Part shown: positions 53,732 through 62,026 of the stretch, one piece after another
Position numbering within the stretch: position 1 is the first letter of the stretch
How the letters are laid out: each line of letters opens with the position of its first letter
Origin: Sphingorhabdus sp. YGSMI21
GTDB taxonomy: Bacteria; Pseudomonadota; Alphaproteobacteria; Sphingomonadales; Sphingomonadaceae
Direction of reading: 5' to 3'
Assembly: GCF_002776575.1 (NCBI RefSeq)
Contig: NZ_CP022548.1
Coordinates: 2,247,001 to 2,311,000, forward strand
Length of the DNA: 64,000 bases
Position numbers and translations under genes: made by a program
The notes under the pieces: generated by a model
Database searches by the model: none
The model's input: only the letters and a program-made list of their open reading frames with translations
What the model was told of the DNA's origin: nothing

Positions 53732-55783
53732 ATGAAGATTTCCTATCCTGCGCTGGCCGCCGGTCTCCTGTTTGCCGTCAACGCCGTCCCCGCTCTGGCC
53801 GTAGTCTCAGGCGAGGGCAGCGACGCCTCTACACCCGCCACAAACAAACCCGACACCAGCTTCTCGGTCGGTGAAATCGTCGTCACCGCGCGCGGCATGG
53901 CGGGCAGCACCGACAATGTCCTGACTTCGGTCGACCGGCTGGGCGGTGACATTGCGCAGAAAGCCGATGTCGACAATGTCTACGAACTGATCGGCCGGAT
54001 GCCGGGCATATTGGTGACCGACTTCAACCAGGGCACGACCAGCGGTAAATTTTCGATGCGCGGCTTCAATGGCGAGGGCAATATCAACGCGGTCAGGCTG
54101 CTGATCGACGGCATCCCCTCGAACAGCAACGACGGAAACATGCCCTATATCGACATGGCCTTTCCGCTGAACATTGCGGGTATCGAAGTGGTCCGCGGTA
54201 CCTCCGACCCGCGCTATGGCCTGCACGCCATTGCCGGCAGCGCCAATATCATCACCCGCTCCGGCGGCACCTATGTCGACGCGCGCGGCTTGGTTGGCAG
54301 TTACAACAGTTTCGAGGGGCAGCTGGTCGCCGGACTGGAAAGCGGCAATGTCACGCAAAATTACCAGATCGCCTATCGGGAGAGCGACGGCTATCGCGAT
54401 CACAGCGACAGCCAGCGGTTCAGCCTGGCCGGCAAATGGGGACTTGCGCTGGGAGAAGACGTCAAGCTGGGCGCCATCGCGCGTTACTATGACGCGGACG
54501 CGGAAGAGCCCGGCTATCTGACCTTCGATGACAGCCGCGCTAACCCCCGCATGACCAACGACTATAACGAATCCGACGGCGATTCCCGCGGGCTGCAACA
54601 ATATGCGCTGACGCTCGACGCGGCTCTGTCCGACCGGCTCGACTGGTCGAGCATGGCCTATTACAACCGCTTTCGCGACGACCGTTTTGTCAAATTCTCC
54701 GCCGGAGCCTCGCAGCAGCGCCGCCTGACGCAGGAAGATCAATATGGTGTCTCGACAGCGCTCCACTGGCACGGCGATCTGTCCGGCGTCCCGCTGATGC
54801 TGGAGGCCGGCGGCAATATCGAATGGCAGGACAATCGCTCCGCCCGCTGGCTCTCGGTCGAACGCGTGCCGACCAGCCAGACCCGCGACCAGCAGTTCGA
54901 CCTTTCGGTTGGCGGCGCCTATGTCCAGGCCATCATCGAACCGGCAAGCTGGCTGCGAATCACGCCCGCCTACCGGATCGACTGGGTCGGCGGCGACTTC
55001 GATAATTTGCTGAGCGACACGTCCGCGCCGATCAACGACTATGGCAGCATTGACCAGCCCAAGCTGTCGGTCGCGGTCTTCCTGACCGACGGCGTCACGC
55101 TTTACGGCAACTGGGGGAAGACATTCCAGATCGGTCTGGGATCGGGCGCCTATCTGATCCCGCCACGCCAGGTCGATCTGGCCCCGTCGATCAACAGCGG
55201 CTGGGAACTGGGCGCAAAATATCAGCTTGGCGACATGGTCGAGGCGCGTGTCGCTTATTGGGAGCAGAGCGCGACCGGAGAAATTGCGCGCAAGCTCAAC
55301 GATCCGCTGGGTGATTTCGAGAATGTCGGCGGCACCGACCGCAAAGGCGTCGATGTTCAACTGAGCGTCCAGCCGATGGCCGGTCTGTCGCTGTGGGGCG
55401 CATTGTCATGGCAGAAGGCCGTCATTTCGGTGCCATCGCCGGCGACGCCGGAACTGGCCGGCAATGAGATCAACCACACGCCGCGCTGGCTCTGGTCCGG
55501 CGGGATTGAATATTCTCCGCTGGAGCCGCTCACCCTGTCGCTGACCGGGCGCGGGCAATCCTCCTACCATCTCACCACCGCCAATGCGGAGGGCAAATGG
55601 GGCGATTTAAATGTGTTCGATGCGAGCGCCTTCTATCGCGTGAACGACACATTGGAACTCGGTCTGACGGTCAAGAATCTGGGCGACAGCTATTATGAAT
55701 ATGTCTGGTGGGACGGATCGCAGACGCTGCACAGCCCGGCCAATGGCCGCAATGTCACCGCCAGCGCCCGTCTGCGCTTCTGA
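53732..55783 (+). CDS. TonB-dependent outer-membrane receptor
   Basis: 683 residues. Signal peptide, a plug domain (NVYELIGRMPGILVTDFNQGTTSGKFSMRGFNGEGNINAVRLLIDGIP, IAGIEVVRGTSDPRYGLHAIAGSANIITRSGG) and a C-terminal barrel with the terminal aromatic residue ...ASARLRF. It sits between a DUF2946 gene and a PepSY gene. This layout suggests a metal chelate (possibly copper) or small siderophore, but the ligand cannot be told from the sequence. Its stop overlaps the next start (TGATG). Confidence 0.93.
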   Translation: MKISYPALAAGLLFAVNAVPALAVVSGEGSDASTPATNKPDTSFSVGEIVVTARGMAGSTDNVLTSVDRLGGDIAQKADVDNVYELIGRMPGILVTDFNQGTTSGKFSMRGFNGEGNINAVRLLIDGIPSNSNDGNMPYIDMAFPLNIAGIEVVRGTSDPRYGLHAIAGSANIITRSGGTYVDARGLVGSYNSFEGQLVAGLESGNVTQNYQIAYRESDGYRDHSDSQRFSLAGKWGLALGEDVKLGAIARYYDADAEEPGYLTFDDSRANPRMTNDYNESDGDSRGLQQYALTLDAALSDRLDWSSMAYYNRFRDDRFVKFSAGASQQRRLTQEDQYGVSTALHWHGDLSGVPLMLEAGGNIEWQDNRSARWLSVERVPTSQTRDQQFDLSVGGAYVQAIIEPASWLRITPAYRIDWVGGDFDNLLSDTSAPINDYGSIDQPKLSVAVFLTDGVTLYGNWGKTFQIGLGSGAYLIPPRQVDLAPSINSGWELGAKYQLGDMVEARVAYWEQSATGEIARKLNDPLGDFENVGGTDRKGVDVQLSVQPMAGLSLWGALSWQKAVISVPSPATPELAGNEINHTPRWLWSGGIEYSPLEPLTLSLTGRGQSSYHLTTANAEGKWGDLNVFDASAFYRVNDTLELGLTVKNLGDSYYEYVWWDGSQTLHSPANGRNVTASARLRF

Positions 55784-56886
55784 TGCAGATCAGGGGAGAC
55801 CGGCTGCGTCGCGCGGTGCGCGCGCTCCATCTATGGCTGGGGCTGGGCATTGGCGGCCTGCTGGTCTTGCTCGGCCTGACCGGTTCGGTCCTCACCTTCT
55901 ATCCGGAGCTGGATGCTCTGTTGCATCCGGAAATCCGGGTGGAGGCGGGCATACCCGACTGGGACCGGGCCTTGGCGACCGTGCGCCAGGCCTATCCGGA
56001 CAAACAGGGGCCGTGGCGATTTGAAGTGACTGGCCAGCCCGGCGCGATCCCCGCGCGCTATTATAATCCGCGGGAGCGGGCCGGCCATGATTTCCGGCCG
56101 ATGATGGTCTGGCTCTCCCCCGATGGCTCGCAGCTACTGCGCCGCGACTATTGGGGCGAATATGCGGTGACCTTCATCTATGATCTGCATTACCGGCTGC
56201 TGCTCGGGGAGACCGGCGGTACCGTGCTCGGCTGGCTGGGCTTCGTCCTGCTCGCGCTGTTGCTCAGCGGTCTATGGGCCTGGTGGCCCAGAGGTTCCTG
56301 GAGAAAGGCACTGCGGCTCAAGCCCGGCGCCCACCCGCACCGGAGCCTGCGGGACTGGCACAAGCTTGCCGGGCTGTCCGGTCTGGTGTTTCTGCTCATC
56401 CTGACGGTGACCGGGATCATGCTGGCGCTGCCGGAGGAGAGCGATACGGCGCTGAGCGCAGCCGGTCTGCCGGTCGACGCCATGCCCCATGTTCATCCCG
56501 CCTCGACCCCATCCGGACAGCCGGTCAGCGTCGCCCATATCGTGCGCGCAGGTCGCTCGGCGCTGCCCGAGGCCCGTCTCGCGTGGATCGAAACGCCACC
56601 GGAGCAGGGCGGCCATTTCCGCTTGCGCATGCAGGTCCCCGGCGACCCCAGCTTCCGCTTCCCGCACAGCTATGTCTGGGTCGAGGGCGGCAGCGGCAAG
56701 GTCGTGGCGATTCACGACGCGCGACAGGTCCGGACCGGCAGCACGATCAACAACTGGCTGCACCCGCTGCACGATGGATCGGCCGGCGGACTGGCCGGGC
56801 GCCTATTGGCCGCGCTGTGCGGACTGCTGCCGGCGGTGCTGTTCGTCACTGGTGTCTTGCGCTGGCGATCAAGGCGGCGAGGGTGA
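55783..56886 (+). CDS. PepSY-associated TM helix protein
   Basis: 367 residues from ATG 55783, the TGATG overlap with the receptor. Four membrane spans with large periplasmic loops: HLWLGLGIGGLLVLLGLTGSVLTFYPELD at the N-terminus, DLHYRLLLGE, LHPLHDGSAGGLAG. This is the PepSY_TM pattern of proteins that work with TonB receptors, some acting as inner-membrane ferric reductases. It is translationally coupled to the receptor. Role in processing the imported metal complex is inferred. Confidence 0.88.
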   Translation: MQIRGDRLRRAVRALHLWLGLGIGGLLVLLGLTGSVLTFYPELDALLHPEIRVEAGIPDWDRALATVRQAYPDKQGPWRFEVTGQPGAIPARYYNPRERAGHDFRPMMVWLSPDGSQLLRRDYWGEYAVTFIYDLHYRLLLGETGGTVLGWLGFVLLALLLSGLWAWWPRGSWRKALRLKPGAHPHRSLRDWHKLAGLSGLVFLLILTVTGIMLALPEESDTALSAAGLPVDAMPHVHPASTPSGQPVSVAHIVRAGRSALPEARLAWIETPPEQGGHFRLRMQVPGDPSFRFPHSYVWVEGGSGKVVAIHDARQVRTGSTINNWLHPLHDGSAGGLAGRLLAALCGLLPAVLFVTGVLRWRSRRRG

Positions 56887-58670: not shown

Positions 58671-58861
58671 TAATTCTCTCCTCGTGAATAAAATGATATA
58701 ACGTAACATATATGATCATTATGAAGATGAACGGGAGATGAACGGGCTCTTTCTCCGTCGGTTCCGGCGTGATCAGCCGAGGGCGTGACGGACATCACGC
58801 AACGCCCGGCGCTCCATTGGTTACAGTTTTGCGGTCGCGTTATTCAGAGGAGACAGAATCA

Positions 58862-59785
58862 ATGCCCGGTGAAAACTCTAACGCAGTGATCCAGAAAAAA
58901 GTGGATGAACTGAAGGAAAAATTCGAAGCCCGCGTTCAGGCGATCAGACAGAAGGGATCGGAACAATTGGGGAATATCAACGATGATGCTCCCGATCCGT
59001 CCGATACCGAAGCGATGCTCAACCTCACCTTTGACGTGAAGTGGAAGCTGACATCGATCAAATTCGACGTGCCGCAATTTTCCATGGAAAGGGAAACGAT
59101 CAAATTCGACATTCCCGAGGTGACGATGAAAATCAAGGAACTCAAATTCGATGTTCCTGCCACCCGCATGGTACGGAAGTGCATCGCGAAAAAGCCAGAA
59201 TTCCACGGCTTCAAGGTCAAATGGACCTGCATTTACGCCCATGTGCCGGAAGCCTATATGAAGCGGGTGACGATCAAGACCGATATTCCGCAATTCTCGA
59301 GCAAGCGAGTGGAAATCAAGTTCGACAAGCCGGTGGTGAAAATGGATCGGGTGGAGATAAAACTCCATCTGCCGCAATTCTATCTCCGCAAGCTCGACGC
59401 CCAGATCGAGGACCACAAGGAAAAGGTCGAGGATGTCGCTGCCGACATGACGGCCGAAATAGCCTCCGCCCAGACCGAGTTGAAAGCCAGCCTCCAGTCC
59501 GAGATCGGCGAGGAAATCGAACTGATGTTCGATGATCTCAGGGAATCGATCCTGAAGGAGCGGACCAATGTCGAAAGCGCCTATGACGAAGCCATCGGCA
59601 AGACCAAATCGGCCATCCGGATCCTGAAGGAAAACAACGCGGTTGACGAAGTGGCGCGCCTGGAAGGCGAATTGTCCAAGCTGGTTAGCGATTATCAGCA
59701 GCTGCTGGCCGATCTCGACAAGGCGCTGGAAGAGATGAACGCGCAACAGCATGAAGCGCTGACCTCGCTCAAAATCTCTGCCTGA
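58862..59785 (+). CDS. coiled-coil protein with eight 14-residue IKFDxP repeats, unknown function
   Basis: 307 residues from ATG 58862 (AGGAGA 8 nt upstream). N-terminal coil (QKKVDELKEKFEARVQAI), then about eight tandem units of period 14 (residues 66-179; one gap is 16) with the pattern [IL]K-[FT]-D-[VI]-P-Q-[FV]-x-M-x-R-x-E, e.g. IKFDVPQFSMERET and IKFDIPEVTMKIKE. Two inner units are divergent (IAKKPEFHGFKVKW, IYAHVPEAYMKRVT). A long C-terminal coiled coil (180-307) follows. No signal peptide. The repeats should form short amphipathic strands. I recognise no named family. Confidence 0.75.
   Translation: MPGENSNAVIQKKVDELKEKFEARVQAIRQKGSEQLGNINDDAPDPSDTEAMLNLTFDVKWKLTSIKFDVPQFSMERETIKFDIPEVTMKIKELKFDVPATRMVRKCIAKKPEFHGFKVKWTCIYAHVPEAYMKRVTIKTDIPQFSSKRVEIKFDKPVVKMDRVEIKLHLPQFYLRKLDAQIEDHKEKVEDVAADMTAEIASAQTELKASLQSEIGEEIELMFDDLRESILKERTNVESAYDEAIGKTKSAIRILKENNAVDEVARLEGELSKLVSDYQQLLADLDKALEEMNAQQHEALTSLKISA
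59057..59398 (+). repeat. 42-bp tandem coding repeats (14-residue protein repeat)
   Basis: Within the 58862-59785 gene, ATCAAATTCGAC-type words recur every 42 bp except for one 48-bp step. The DNA copies are diverged, so the repeat is old and kept at protein level. Confidence 0.7.
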
Positions 59786-60127
59786 AAAACCGGCCAGGCC
59801 GCCGTCCGCCCGCCCACAAGCGCGCGCAAGGCAGCCTGGCCGTTTCGCTATATCGGTCGGGGATCAACGCCGGTCGAGCCGGTGGTGAATGTGCAGGAGC
59901 CATATCGCGCAGCGCCGGCCGGCGCGCTGGATTTACTGTTTCAGAAACATTGGAAATCAATCGGCTATGTTAAAGTGATGCCGTACAGCGTTACTGTAAT
60001 TGCCAATTATCTGCATGGATAGTTGTTCATATATTTCGCAATATTTGTATTCTTCGAATAAAAGTGATATGGTCCATGGTCTGTTTATAATAGTTTAGTG
60101 TCGAACAACTTATAAAAAGGTTTTCGC
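59786..60127. other. 342-bp AT-rich leader before the radical SAM gene, with an upstream hairpin
   Basis: At its left end a 13-bp hairpin (59791-59803 with 59830-59842, CGGCCAGGC/GCCTGGCCG core) is a likely terminator for the repeat-protein gene. From about 59930 composition becomes clearly AT-rich, unlike the rest of the window. A perfect TATAAT lies at 60086-60091 with weak -35 choices, and AAAAAGG at 60114-60120 is the ribosome site. This abrupt change suggests the start of acquired DNA. Confidence 0.55.
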
Positions 60128-61363
60128 ATGGGAGGGATGGACCCTGAAACTCTGGCAGATGGACTGGCTGTTCATGCACCCTCTGCACTCGACTTTCTCC
60201 GCCTGAGCGAGCAAGATATGTTCAATCGCCATCAAAGAGATGGTCTGGACGCACTGGAAAAACCGAAACTGCTGACGGAAGACATTCGCTATCCGGCAAG
60301 CCTCTACATTATTTTGAAAGCGACAAGGCTGTGCAATCTTCGGTGCAGCTATTGCAATGCCTGGCGGGAAGGCCCGAACCAGGTCATCTCCTTCGAGCTG
60401 CTGGCGAAAGCCATACAAAACGCAATGTCTCTCCCCGGTATCCGGTGGCTGCACATTGTCTGGCACGGCGGTGAGACAACCCTTCTGTCCCGCCGCTATT
60501 TCGAGCGGGCAATCTGGCTGCAAGAGCATTTCAGGGTTGATGATCGCCGCGTCGAACATTCCATCCAGACCAATGCAACACTGTTGAACGAGGATTGGTG
60601 CCGCTTTTTCAAGGCGACGGGATTTTCGGTCGGGGTCAGTCTGGATTTCAACGAGAAAAACCACGACAGGCATCGCCGGTTCAAAGACGGTTCCGGAAGC
60701 TATGCCGATGCGCGGCGGGGCGTGGATCTGCTGGAAAAATTCGAGATCCCGCATGGTTGGCTCGCGGTGGTGGACGAGCAGGTCATGGCGCTTGGCGCAC
60801 GCGGTTTGCTGGAGGGCTTGCTGGAGCAAAATGTGGCAACGGTGGGGTTTCTCAACGCTCTGCCGGCCAATGACGAAAGTAGCTCGCCCATGCCTTATCT
60901 TCCGTGGGACCGGTTTGTCGAGTTCCTGCGCGATGTCTTCCGGCTGTGGAAAGCGGAATATCGCGACAAGATCACCATTCGCGAACTTGATTCACTATAC
61001 CGGATCGTCGGCGGGTCCGACTCTCGCCTCTGCATTTATCAAGGCGGATGTATGGGACAATATTTGACAGTGGAACCAGACGGCGTGGTGTCAGCCTGTG
61101 ACAAATATGTTGGCGACGAGGCATTCAGATTCGGCAGTCTCGCCACCCAATCCCTGCAGGAAATATTGGTGAATAATTCATCGCTGGAACAAGTTAGGTC
61201 CGAATCGGACGCTCTATTGAGTTCATTCTCTTTATGCGCTAACTATAAATATTGTCGCGGAGGATGTCCACATGACGCGCGCCTGAATTTAAGGCACGGT
61301 ATTAGTAGTAATTGTTGTGGTCTATATGATTTAATAGAAGATATGAAAGAAGAGGAGAGATAG
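60128..61363 (+). CDS. radical SAM/SPASM peptide-crosslinking enzyme (DarE/dynobactin-maturase-like)
   Basis: 411 residues. AAAAAGG lies 7 nt before the ATG. Radical SAM cluster C69-NLR-C73-SY-C76, then HIVWHGGETTLLSRRYFERA (the GGEP-like SAM-contact motif, here GGET), NATLLNEDW, and GVSLDF. C-terminal SPASM cysteines: CIYQGGCMGQYLTVEPDGVVSAC, then CANYKYCRGGCPHDA and NCC, enough for two auxiliary Fe-S clusters. It lies 2 bp before a 62-codon peptide ending WIYNIWTYRF, so its likely job is to form C-C or C-N crosslinks in that peptide. An anaerobic sulfatase maturase is unlikely since no sulfatase is near. Confidence 0.85.
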   Translation: MGGMDPETLADGLAVHAPSALDFLRLSEQDMFNRHQRDGLDALEKPKLLTEDIRYPASLYIILKATRLCNLRCSYCNAWREGPNQVISFELLAKAIQNAMSLPGIRWLHIVWHGGETTLLSRRYFERAIWLQEHFRVDDRRVEHSIQTNATLLNEDWCRFFKATGFSVGVSLDFNEKNHDRHRRFKDGSGSYADARRGVDLLEKFEIPHGWLAVVDEQVMALGARGLLEGLLEQNVATVGFLNALPANDESSSPMPYLPWDRFVEFLRDVFRLWKAEYRDKITIRELDSLYRIVGGSDSRLCIYQGGCMGQYLTVEPDGVVSACDKYVGDEAFRFGSLATQSLQEILVNNSSLEQVRSESDALLSSFSLCANYKYCRGGCPHDARLNLRHGISSNCCGLYDLIEDMKEEER

Positions 61364-61365
61364 GC

Positions 61366-61554
61366 ATGGCTGAGATTTCAATCGATCGTGAAGCTTTCGA
61401 GATTCTGGAAAAAGGCGAGCTGGAGGCCGCGAGAGGGGACTCCAGACTGGCAAGCTTCTTGGCCAACAAATTCCGTGAAGGGGACGAACGAGCAAGGGCA
61501 GATGCCAGCGCCAAAGCCGACTGGATATATAATATCTGGACTTACAGGTTCTAA
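61366..61554 (+). CDS. dynobactin-like RiPP precursor peptide
   Basis: 62 residues. Residues 1-52 form a charged helical leader (ISIDREAFEILEKGELEAARGD, LASFLANKFREGDERARADASAKAD), and residues 53-62 are WIYNIWTYRF, flush with the stop codon. The core aligns with dynobactin A WNSNVHSYRF without gaps: W1, N4, Y8, R9 and F10 identical, V5/I5 and S7/T7 similar. In dynobactin W1-N4 and H6-Y8 are crosslinked by a radical SAM enzyme; here W6 replaces H6. The gene is 2 bp after a radical SAM/SPASM gene, preceded by GAGAGATAGG. Product and antibiotic activity are inferred. Confidence 0.8.
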   Translation: MAEISIDREAFEILEKGELEAARGDSRLASFLANKFREGDERARADASAKADWIYNIWTYRF

Positions 61555-61729
61555 GGCCGTTGCTGCGTTGCGCTGACGACGCACCAATATGTTTCCGCGC
61601 GCGGAAGGCATCGGGTTTTTCACGGAAGGTCCCAAGCAATAGGAATGAGTGGGCAATCGGTGTGGCTGTGACCGTATCTCGAACGCTATAGATTGAGATT
61701 GCAGGCGTACCGATCGCGATCTTCATCTC

Positions 61730-62026
61730 GATATCTACAGGCTGAACCGGGTAGAAGGACCTTATGTGCTGGAGGCGCAGGCCGACCTTTTGTCCGATCT
61801 GGCCAGCACCGTCGTTGTCCCGTTGGTCCCCGCGAAGGCCGTCCGCGCCGAAACCATGCGCAAGCTGAAACCGGTAATTACCATCAAGGGGCAAGACCTC
61901 TGCCTGATGACCACCGACATCGGCACCCTGCGCCGCGCGTCGCTGGGCAAGCCGGTGGTGAATGTGGAGGGGCCCTATCGCGCGGTGATGGTCGACGCGC
62001 TGGATTTTCTGGTTCAGGGGTTTTGA
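61730..62026 (+). pseudogene. ccdB: ccdB toxin remnant lacking its start codon
   Basis: The frame from 61730 encodes a clear CcdB match (DIYRLNRVEGPYVLEAQADLLSDL, VVPLVPAKAV, PVITIKGQDLCLMTTDIGTL, VMVDALDFLVQGF). The usual MARFDVYRL beginning is replaced by RDLHLDIYRL, and no ATG, GTG or TTG occurs between the in-frame stop TGA at 61694 and 61766 (GTG, already inside the domain). No ccdA antitoxin gene is seen upstream. Probably a broken gyrase-poison toxin; use of GTG 61766 would give a shortened protein. Confidence 0.7.

Follow-up and report, generated by a model that had tools for sequence, protein, structure and literature searches.

Darobactin and dynobactin, the characterised inhibitors of BamA, come from Photorhabdus, according to the accessible text of the papers concerned (PMC13067283; PMC11002830). 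BamA inhibitors are leads against Gram-negative bacteria, and darobactin is described as a mimic of the β-signal at BamA (accessible text of PMC13067283). For darobactin, darA and darE alone suffice, the leader being removed by E. coli proteases, and DarE forms one ether and one C-C bond (accessible text of PMC9055067). In dynobactin, the links described join W1 to N4 (C-C) and H6 to Y8 (C-N) (accessible text of PMC13067283 and PMC11002830). The precursors of Photorhabdus cluster IV have the core WT(F/Y)RF and, in the accessible text of Guo et al. (2022; PMC9055067), are described without DarBCD. Their product carries +14 Da, with an ether between W1 and F3 that was placed by MS/MS, the material being too little for NMR (same text of PMC9055067). 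The mono-ether mass computed here for WTFRF, 770.362, equals the m/z of 770.36 published in that text (PMC9055067). A P. asymbiotica locus (L145) holds a second DarE-like gene (705 bits with the DarE model, cut-off 650) and a precursor ending in WTFRF, in agreement with what Guo et al. (2022) describe for cluster IV precursors in the accessible text (PMC9055067); a further P. asymbiotica locus (L005) is a darobactin cluster with two precursors.

The locus considered here lies in a stretch of 64,000 nucleotides of Sphingorhabdus sp. YGSMI21 (contig NZ_CP022548.1, positions 2,247,001 to 2,311,000; hereafter the window), where two adjacent genes on the forward strand, judging from their sequences, probably direct the synthesis of a small, ring-bearing peptide akin to darobactin and dynobactin. 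The first gene (60128..61363) encodes a radical SAM/SPASM peptide maturase of 411 aa, DarW/DarE-like and under both family cut-offs, in which the Pfam domains Radical_SAM (PF04055, 56.7 bits) and SPASM (PF13186, 32.6 bits) exceed theirs. The cysteines of its CxxxCxxC motif (C69, C73, C76; 60332..60355, forward strand), which bind the radical SAM iron-sulfur cluster, are present in 40 of 40 aligned enzymes; in the SPASM region (C302, C308, C324, C370, C376, C380, C396 and C397; 61031..61318, forward strand), the first seven are found in 40 of 40 and C397 in 38 of 40. The second gene (61366..61554) starts 2 bp past the stop codon of the enzyme gene and encodes a precursor of 62 aa that ends in ADWIYNIWTYRF, followed by the stop. 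Coordinates and reading frames thus agree with the earlier note, which had described a 62-residue peptide 2 bp after a radical SAM/SPASM gene, terminating in WIYNIWTYRF.

The leader would comprise precursor residues 1-52 (61366..61521, forward strand), its end being placed before W53 because darobactin and dynobactin cores start with Trp. The predicted core WIYNIWTYRF (61522..61551, forward strand) contains two W-x-Y motifs and has the stop codon directly after it. GAGGAG, 8 nt 5' of the ATG (61352..61357, forward strand), is the likely ribosome binding site of the precursor gene. A promoter-like GTGATA-16-TATAAT, recognised by consensus only, lies 5' of the enzyme gene (60064..60091, forward strand); on both strands of 59780-61700 there are five promoter-like sites, against 1.4 expected from shuffles. 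No transporter or protease gene lies within the enzyme-precursor pair, which is no obstacle to production because darA and darE suffice for darobactin and E. coli proteases cut its leader (accessible text of PMC9055067).

Is the precursor a real gene? Among 5.77 billion database proteins there are near-copies (P0121, 97% identical, in a cluster that may contain the window's own copy; P0122, 92% identical, from a different source), a 33% identical precursor adjoins a related enzyme in another genome (locus L146), and the model for DynW-associated RiPP peptides (NF041299) matches the window precursor at 26.3 bits, below its cut-off of 40. Backed by these three findings, the precursor is a real gene. 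In P0122, the core Arg is replaced by Lys. Both near-copies keep WIYNIWTY unaltered, which says little because they are so close to the window precursor. A search with the precursor alignment added a single protein, P0123, a near-copy of the L146 precursor.

The earlier note had aligned the core position by position with dynobactin A (WNSNVHSYRF), and this alignment is correct: W1, N4, Y8, R9 and F10 are identical, and I/V at position 5 and T/S at position 7 are conservative. The resemblance exceeds chance. The comparison covered 16,323 frames of 40 aa or longer that end in a stop, drawn from 164 records that overlap in part and were mostly fetched for radical SAM maturases, hence a non-random sample. 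Eight of these frames share at least five residues with dynobactin A, and they belong to the window locus (four overlapping records, 5/10) and to two true dynobactin loci (four records, 10/10). No unrelated frame end among the 16,323 reached five identities, and 13 others had four.

Despite this resemblance in the core, a place for the pair within dynobactin is not supported. The two Photorhabdus dynobactin loci used as yardsticks (from the 2 genomes, out of 12, that exceed the cut-off of the dynobactin enzyme model NF041298) have enzymes scoring 609 and 605 bits with that model, and one true precursor scores 84.5 bits. The window enzyme reaches 148.7 bits (cut-off 450) and its precursor 15.4 bits with the dynobactin peptide model NF041295 (cut-off 40). 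The window enzyme is 23-25% identical to the two dynobactin enzymes, and at the last SPASM position these have Cys-Pro where 38 of the 40 aligned enzymes, the window's included, have Cys-Cys. As two sulfatase-maturase-like enzymes are among the 38, Cys-Cys sets the window enzyme apart from dynobactin only. Among the dynobactin cross-link residues, W1, N4 and Y8 are present in the window core and H6 is replaced by Trp. Model scores, sequence identity and the absent His led us to reject membership of dynobactin. What holds of the proposal of a dynobactin-like locus is therefore that the two genes form a radical SAM RiPP pair akin to those of darobactin and dynobactin, and that they do so outside the enterobacteria; the assignment to dynobactin itself is not supported. 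The layout is nevertheless shared, since dynobactin A is also a decapeptide and its enzyme gene also precedes the precursor gene, with gaps of 14 and 15 bp in the two Photorhabdus loci versus 2 bp in the window. The same order is found in L146 and in Gilvimarinus, whereas in darobactin and cluster IV the precursor gene precedes that of the enzyme.

Among NCBIfam models, the window enzyme scores best with DarW (NF041300, 352.2 bits) and lower with DarE (NF038005, 303.3 bits), under the cut-off of 650 in each case. NF041300 and NF041299 are the top models for the window enzyme and precursor, as for the L146 pair, yet both window proteins stay below the respective cut-offs of 650 and 40. No genome over the NF041300 enzyme cut-off was found in the samples of 385, 398 and 369 genomes searched, and no paper on DynW was found among the literature-search matches listed. 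The closest solved relatives by sequence are the anaerobic sulfatase-maturating enzymes (4k36-4k39; E 8.2e-58 with a 28-enzyme profile), which also combine radical SAM and SPASM; unlike the proposed peptide maturase they act on sulfatases, and their model gives the window enzyme 206 bits (cut-off 349), more than its dynobactin score. When the window enzyme was aligned with 27 homologues, all 28 matched the DarW and DarE models; the same 28 also matched the sulfatase, dynobactin and AmcB models, with weaker best E-values. Homologues of the window enzyme number 516 at E<=1e-3 among 7997 candidates scored. The closest database enzymes (P0002-P0017) are 49-61% identical to it, and a 99% identical database entry has 11 member sequences on 9 contigs, which may include its own copy.

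The window pair resembles darobactin A (WNWSKSF) and DarE in having a DarE-like enzyme, a core that starts with W-x-aromatic and a leader of similar length. It differs from them in offering no Lys/Arg for a second fused ring, in having two separate W-x-Y motifs and no transporter genes in the pair, and in an enzyme that is 32% identical to DarE. Daropeptides are recognised by a W-x-aromatic near the C-terminus of a peptide encoded beside a DarE-like enzyme, and the window core has two such motifs, WIY and WTY. Because the published cluster IV core is WT(F/Y)RF (accessible text of PMC9055067), the WTYRF at the stop equals the cluster IV motif and WIY would be a second W-x-aromatic. Cluster IV is like the window in this W-T-aromatic-R-F at the stop, in the SPASM Cys-Cys and, as far as the accessible text describes it, in having no DarBCD (PMC9055067). 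It is unlike the window in the upstream position of the precursor, in the single W-x-aromatic, in an enzyme that is 31% identical to the window's, and in the putative N-acetyltransferase that the same text places in the cluster (PMC9055067).

Fifteen instances of W-x-[FYW]-[RK]-F at a stop codon were counted in 1,456,234 bases (164 records, some overlapping, most fetched for maturases). Twelve occurrences have Thr in second position and represent six distinct places, all six beside a DarE-like enzyme; since three of these are the same Photorhabdus type, four independent kinds are represented. The three occurrences without Thr have no such enzyme as gene neighbour, although the Cupriavidus enzyme is encoded 2.7 kb away from one of them, on the opposite strand. 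In Gilvimarinus chinensis (L007), a DarE-like gene shares 23 bp with the gene of a 36-aa peptide ending in WTWRF, which has the look of another daropeptide cluster. After this precursor (L007:6107-9285) come reading frames of 324, 138 and 539 aa; judged only by eye, the 539-aa product resembles an ABC transporter. Neither the L145 nor the L007 peptide matches NF041299, so that they share only the tail with the window precursor. No peptide with this C-terminal motif was recognised beside the enzymes of Larkinella (L006) and Cupriavidus (L086). In Larkinella, a reading frame just 5' of the DarE-like enzyme (L006:5470-5898) contains RIWFRIWVRFWFRI, a repeated W-aromatic stretch, and could be a multi-core precursor.

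The nearest sister locus is L146, whose N-terminally cut enzyme is best matched by the DarW model (369.9 bits) and is 37% identical to the window enzyme, or 41% within the matched part; in its genus (that of G042) it was the hit in 1 of 80 genomes at E<=1e-60. Its precursor (L146:2588-2773; 61 aa) overlaps the 3' end of the enzyme gene by 38 bp, scores 25.5 bits with NF041299 over the full model (1-68) and ends in WYFSWTYRF. This core, one residue shorter than that of the window, likewise contains W-x-aromatic twice. WTYRF is the longest stretch common to the two precursors. The expectation that the C-terminal motif would be kept in sister loci is thus borne out for the WTYRF tail but not for Asn4, which is replaced by Ser. 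In the family, genus, class and phylum samples, L146 was the only other locus of the family at which such a precursor was recognised, so that conservation of the core stands on two independent double-W cores. The same samples gave the more distant loci L003, L004 and L085; a contig scan with two short patterns gave at least 79 loci, mostly distant maturases, and a scan of viral contigs 54, the best by E-value being 31% identical.

Enzyme trees were computed from 38 rows without dynobactin enzymes, and then from 40, 37 and 28 rows with them (the 40 being the 38 minus two distant rows plus four added; the 37 and 28 being the 40 minus 3 and minus 12 rows, long branches and near relatives), the first three being drawn. 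In the three drawn trees, the window enzyme belongs to a separate 17-row clade of database proteins (support 99-100 / 96-100), one of them named Novosphingobium. The 40-row tree shows a 34-row group that includes DarE and excludes the dynobactin and sulfatase-like enzymes (support 88/87), whereas a comparable split in the 28-row tree has support of only 22/63. The dynobactin enzymes stand on a very long branch, apart from the window clade in the best trees shown. AU tests did not reject a constraint that unites the window clade with them (p 0.356 with 37 rows; p 0.29 with 28 rows, 0.7 log units worse); the constraint that unites it with DarE/cluster IV scored 9.3 log units worse and was almost rejected (p-AU 0.097, 28 rows). 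The tree asked for earlier, with DarE and the dynobactin enzyme, thus gives a clade of its own, and the trees are compatible with either DarE or the dynobactin enzyme as the nearer one by descent.

What would such a pair produce? We favour ether rings (W6-Y8, perhaps W1-Y3) over the links of dynobactin. The reading preferred, tentatively and at slightly less than even confidence, is a minimal two-gene RiPP operon of the daropeptide type, in which Trp-O-aromatic ethers would be set in a BamA-blocking decapeptide. The 52-residue leader would bring the precursor to the radical SAM/SPASM enzyme, which would join Trp, most likely through oxygen as reported for DarE enzymes, to the β-carbon of the aromatic residue at i+2; the likeliest site is W6-Y8 and, less surely, W1-Y3. 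Host proteases would then cut the leader before W1 to give the stiff decapeptide WIYNIWTYRF. Its Y-R-F end may imitate the C-terminal β-signal of outer membrane proteins and so block BamA of competing Gram-negative bacteria; the feature relevant to BamA that is visible in the core is the aromatic-x-Phe C-terminus only. It is the bonds and their number, the cleavage site, the export and the target of the window product that we infer here. The ether reading is favoured by the higher DarW and DarE scores (352 and 303 bits, against 149 for dynobactin), by the six of six WT[FYW][RK]F places beside a DarE-like enzyme in the 164 records, by the cluster IV ether, whose enzyme is over the DarE cut-off (MS/MS in the accessible text of PMC9055067), and by the doubled W-x-aromatic of L146. 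It is weakened by an enzyme that lies under all family cut-offs and is only 32% identical to DarE, by the separate clade, whose grouping with DarE/cluster IV was close to being rejected (0.097, against 0.29 for dynobactin) and by a gene order as in dynobactin, unlike darobactin or cluster IV. Moreover, only two independent cores carry the double W-x-aromatic, and chemistry and activity go beyond what sequence can tell.

It is possible, although unlikely, that the product is mixed, with a dynobactin-type C-C bond W1-N4 and a daropeptide-type ether W6-O-Y8, for a net +12 Da. W1 and N4 align with the C-C pair of dynobactin (accessible text of PMC13067283 and PMC11002830), WTYRF aligns with the ether-bearing core of cluster IV and DarE itself makes one bond of each sort (accessible text of PMC9055067). 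Asn4 is not conserved in the L146 core; the Ser of that core sits at i+3 from W1 and is a C-C partner in principle, so that an i,i+3 bond is possible there. The mixed product would, however, leave unexplained the aromatic residue at position 3 of both cores. A wholly dynobactin-like chemistry, with C-C W1-N4, an oxygen-free bond between residue 6 and Y8 and a net loss of four H, is retained as a rival because the tree tests did not exclude a grouping with dynobactin enzymes; it agrees with the five of ten identical residues, unmatched by unrelated frame ends, and with the gene order of the two dynobactin loci. We nevertheless consider it rather improbable, as it sits poorly with the enzyme and precursor scores (149 of 450 and 15.4 of 40 bits), the 23-25% identity, Cys-Cys in place of Cys-Pro, the loss of N4 in L146 and a Trp at position 6, which cannot offer the imidazole nitrogen that the C-N bond uses.

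Alternatively, only the pentapeptide WTYRF might mature, with a single ether like the Photorhabdus cluster IV product, and WIY would belong to the leader. The single W-x-aromatic of the cluster IV and Gilvimarinus precursors, and the fact that WTYRF is the longest stretch shared with L146, speak for this; there is still little to recommend it when the L146 precursor retains the upstream W-x-aromatic, as do P0121 and P0122, although these are too close to say much. Three-residue C-C cyclophanes at W-I-Y and W-T-Y (triceptide chemistry), equal in mass to the dynobactin-like product (-4 H), are the least credible, since the models of the cyclophane-forming maturases AmcB and GrrM give only 139 and 137 bits, far under their cut-offs (425 and 310) and below the DarE and DarW scores.

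The mass shift to expect is probably a gain (+12, +14 or +28 Da), and a search for the loss of four H would miss an ether product. For the decapeptide, the computed [M+H]+ is 1461.731 in linear form, 1475.711 with one ether, 1489.690 with two, 1473.695 with an ether and a C-C bond, and 1457.700 after loss of four H; WTYRF with a single ether would give 786.357. If W1-N4 formed instead of W1-Y3, the product would be a dynobactin/daropeptide hybrid. The pair is small enough for expression in E. coli at once, and it would test whether one enzyme sets oxygen bridges at two sites and how the darobactin and dynobactin scaffolds relate. The core WIYNIWTYRF differs from those of darobactin and dynobactin, and it pairs a dynobactin layout with the tail seen in a daropeptide that bears an ether. 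The locus is not a new kind of system, because a DarE enzyme beyond the enterobacteria is already annotated (on a Vibrio crassostreae plasmid) and NCBI holds the NF041300/NF041299 pair. What may be new, with somewhat more doubt than confidence, is a decapeptide acting on BamA in which a single alphaproteobacterial enzyme of a separate clade sets two Trp-O-Tyr ether macrocycles, or one ether and a Trp-Asn C-C ring. No report of this core was found among the literature matches listed, and an earlier listing is possible in Miller et al. (2022) or Ma et al. (2024), which lie outside the literature covered.

Close relatives of the window enzyme are scarce in the genomes searched. At E<=1e-60, the window's own genome was the single hit among 32 of the same genus, and three other genera of the family gave 0 of 201, 0 of 40 and 1 of 80. 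Among 397 genomes of the family, E<=1e-40 gave three hits, namely the own genome and two whose enzymes are 33% identical. In the class, the DarW model hit 2 of 385 genomes at E<=1e-60, of which one is the window's and the other distant. At E<=1e-80 only the window's genome was hit among 398 of the phylum, and at E<=1e-90 the Gilvimarinus genome itself was the sole hit among 369 of its class.

The surroundings may tell how the operon arrived. The GC content is 0.53 and 0.51 for the pair and 0.53 for the left neighbour, against 0.59 for the window. The right neighbour is a CcdB reading frame (61766-62026) whose 5' part is missing, Pfam CcdB being matched from profile position 19 only, and two ccdB-like 3' ends on the same strand flank the operon (59868-59944 and 61941-62017; 82% over 77 bp). 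The truncated CcdB and the flanking copies point to a possible insertion of the operon into a ccdAB locus; together with the low GC, the ccdB-like remnants on both sides suggest acquisition by transfer. The left neighbour (58769-59785) encodes a protein of 338 aa with no family match over cut-off and a faint PADLOC match (PDC-S06, 17.9 bits), found in 3 of 32 genomes of the same genus at E<=1e-20, its own included. One of the same genus, G407, has this neighbour at 86% and no similarity to the pair in the roughly 340 bp before the locus ends, too short to call an empty site. Against plasmids, 24 kb of the window gave only short matches (76-78%, Sphingobium and Sphingomonas), which agrees with the sphingomonad of the earlier note. 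Farther upstream, at 53732-56886, a TonB-dependent receptor is followed by a PepSY_TM protein (Pfam), a common iron-uptake pair.
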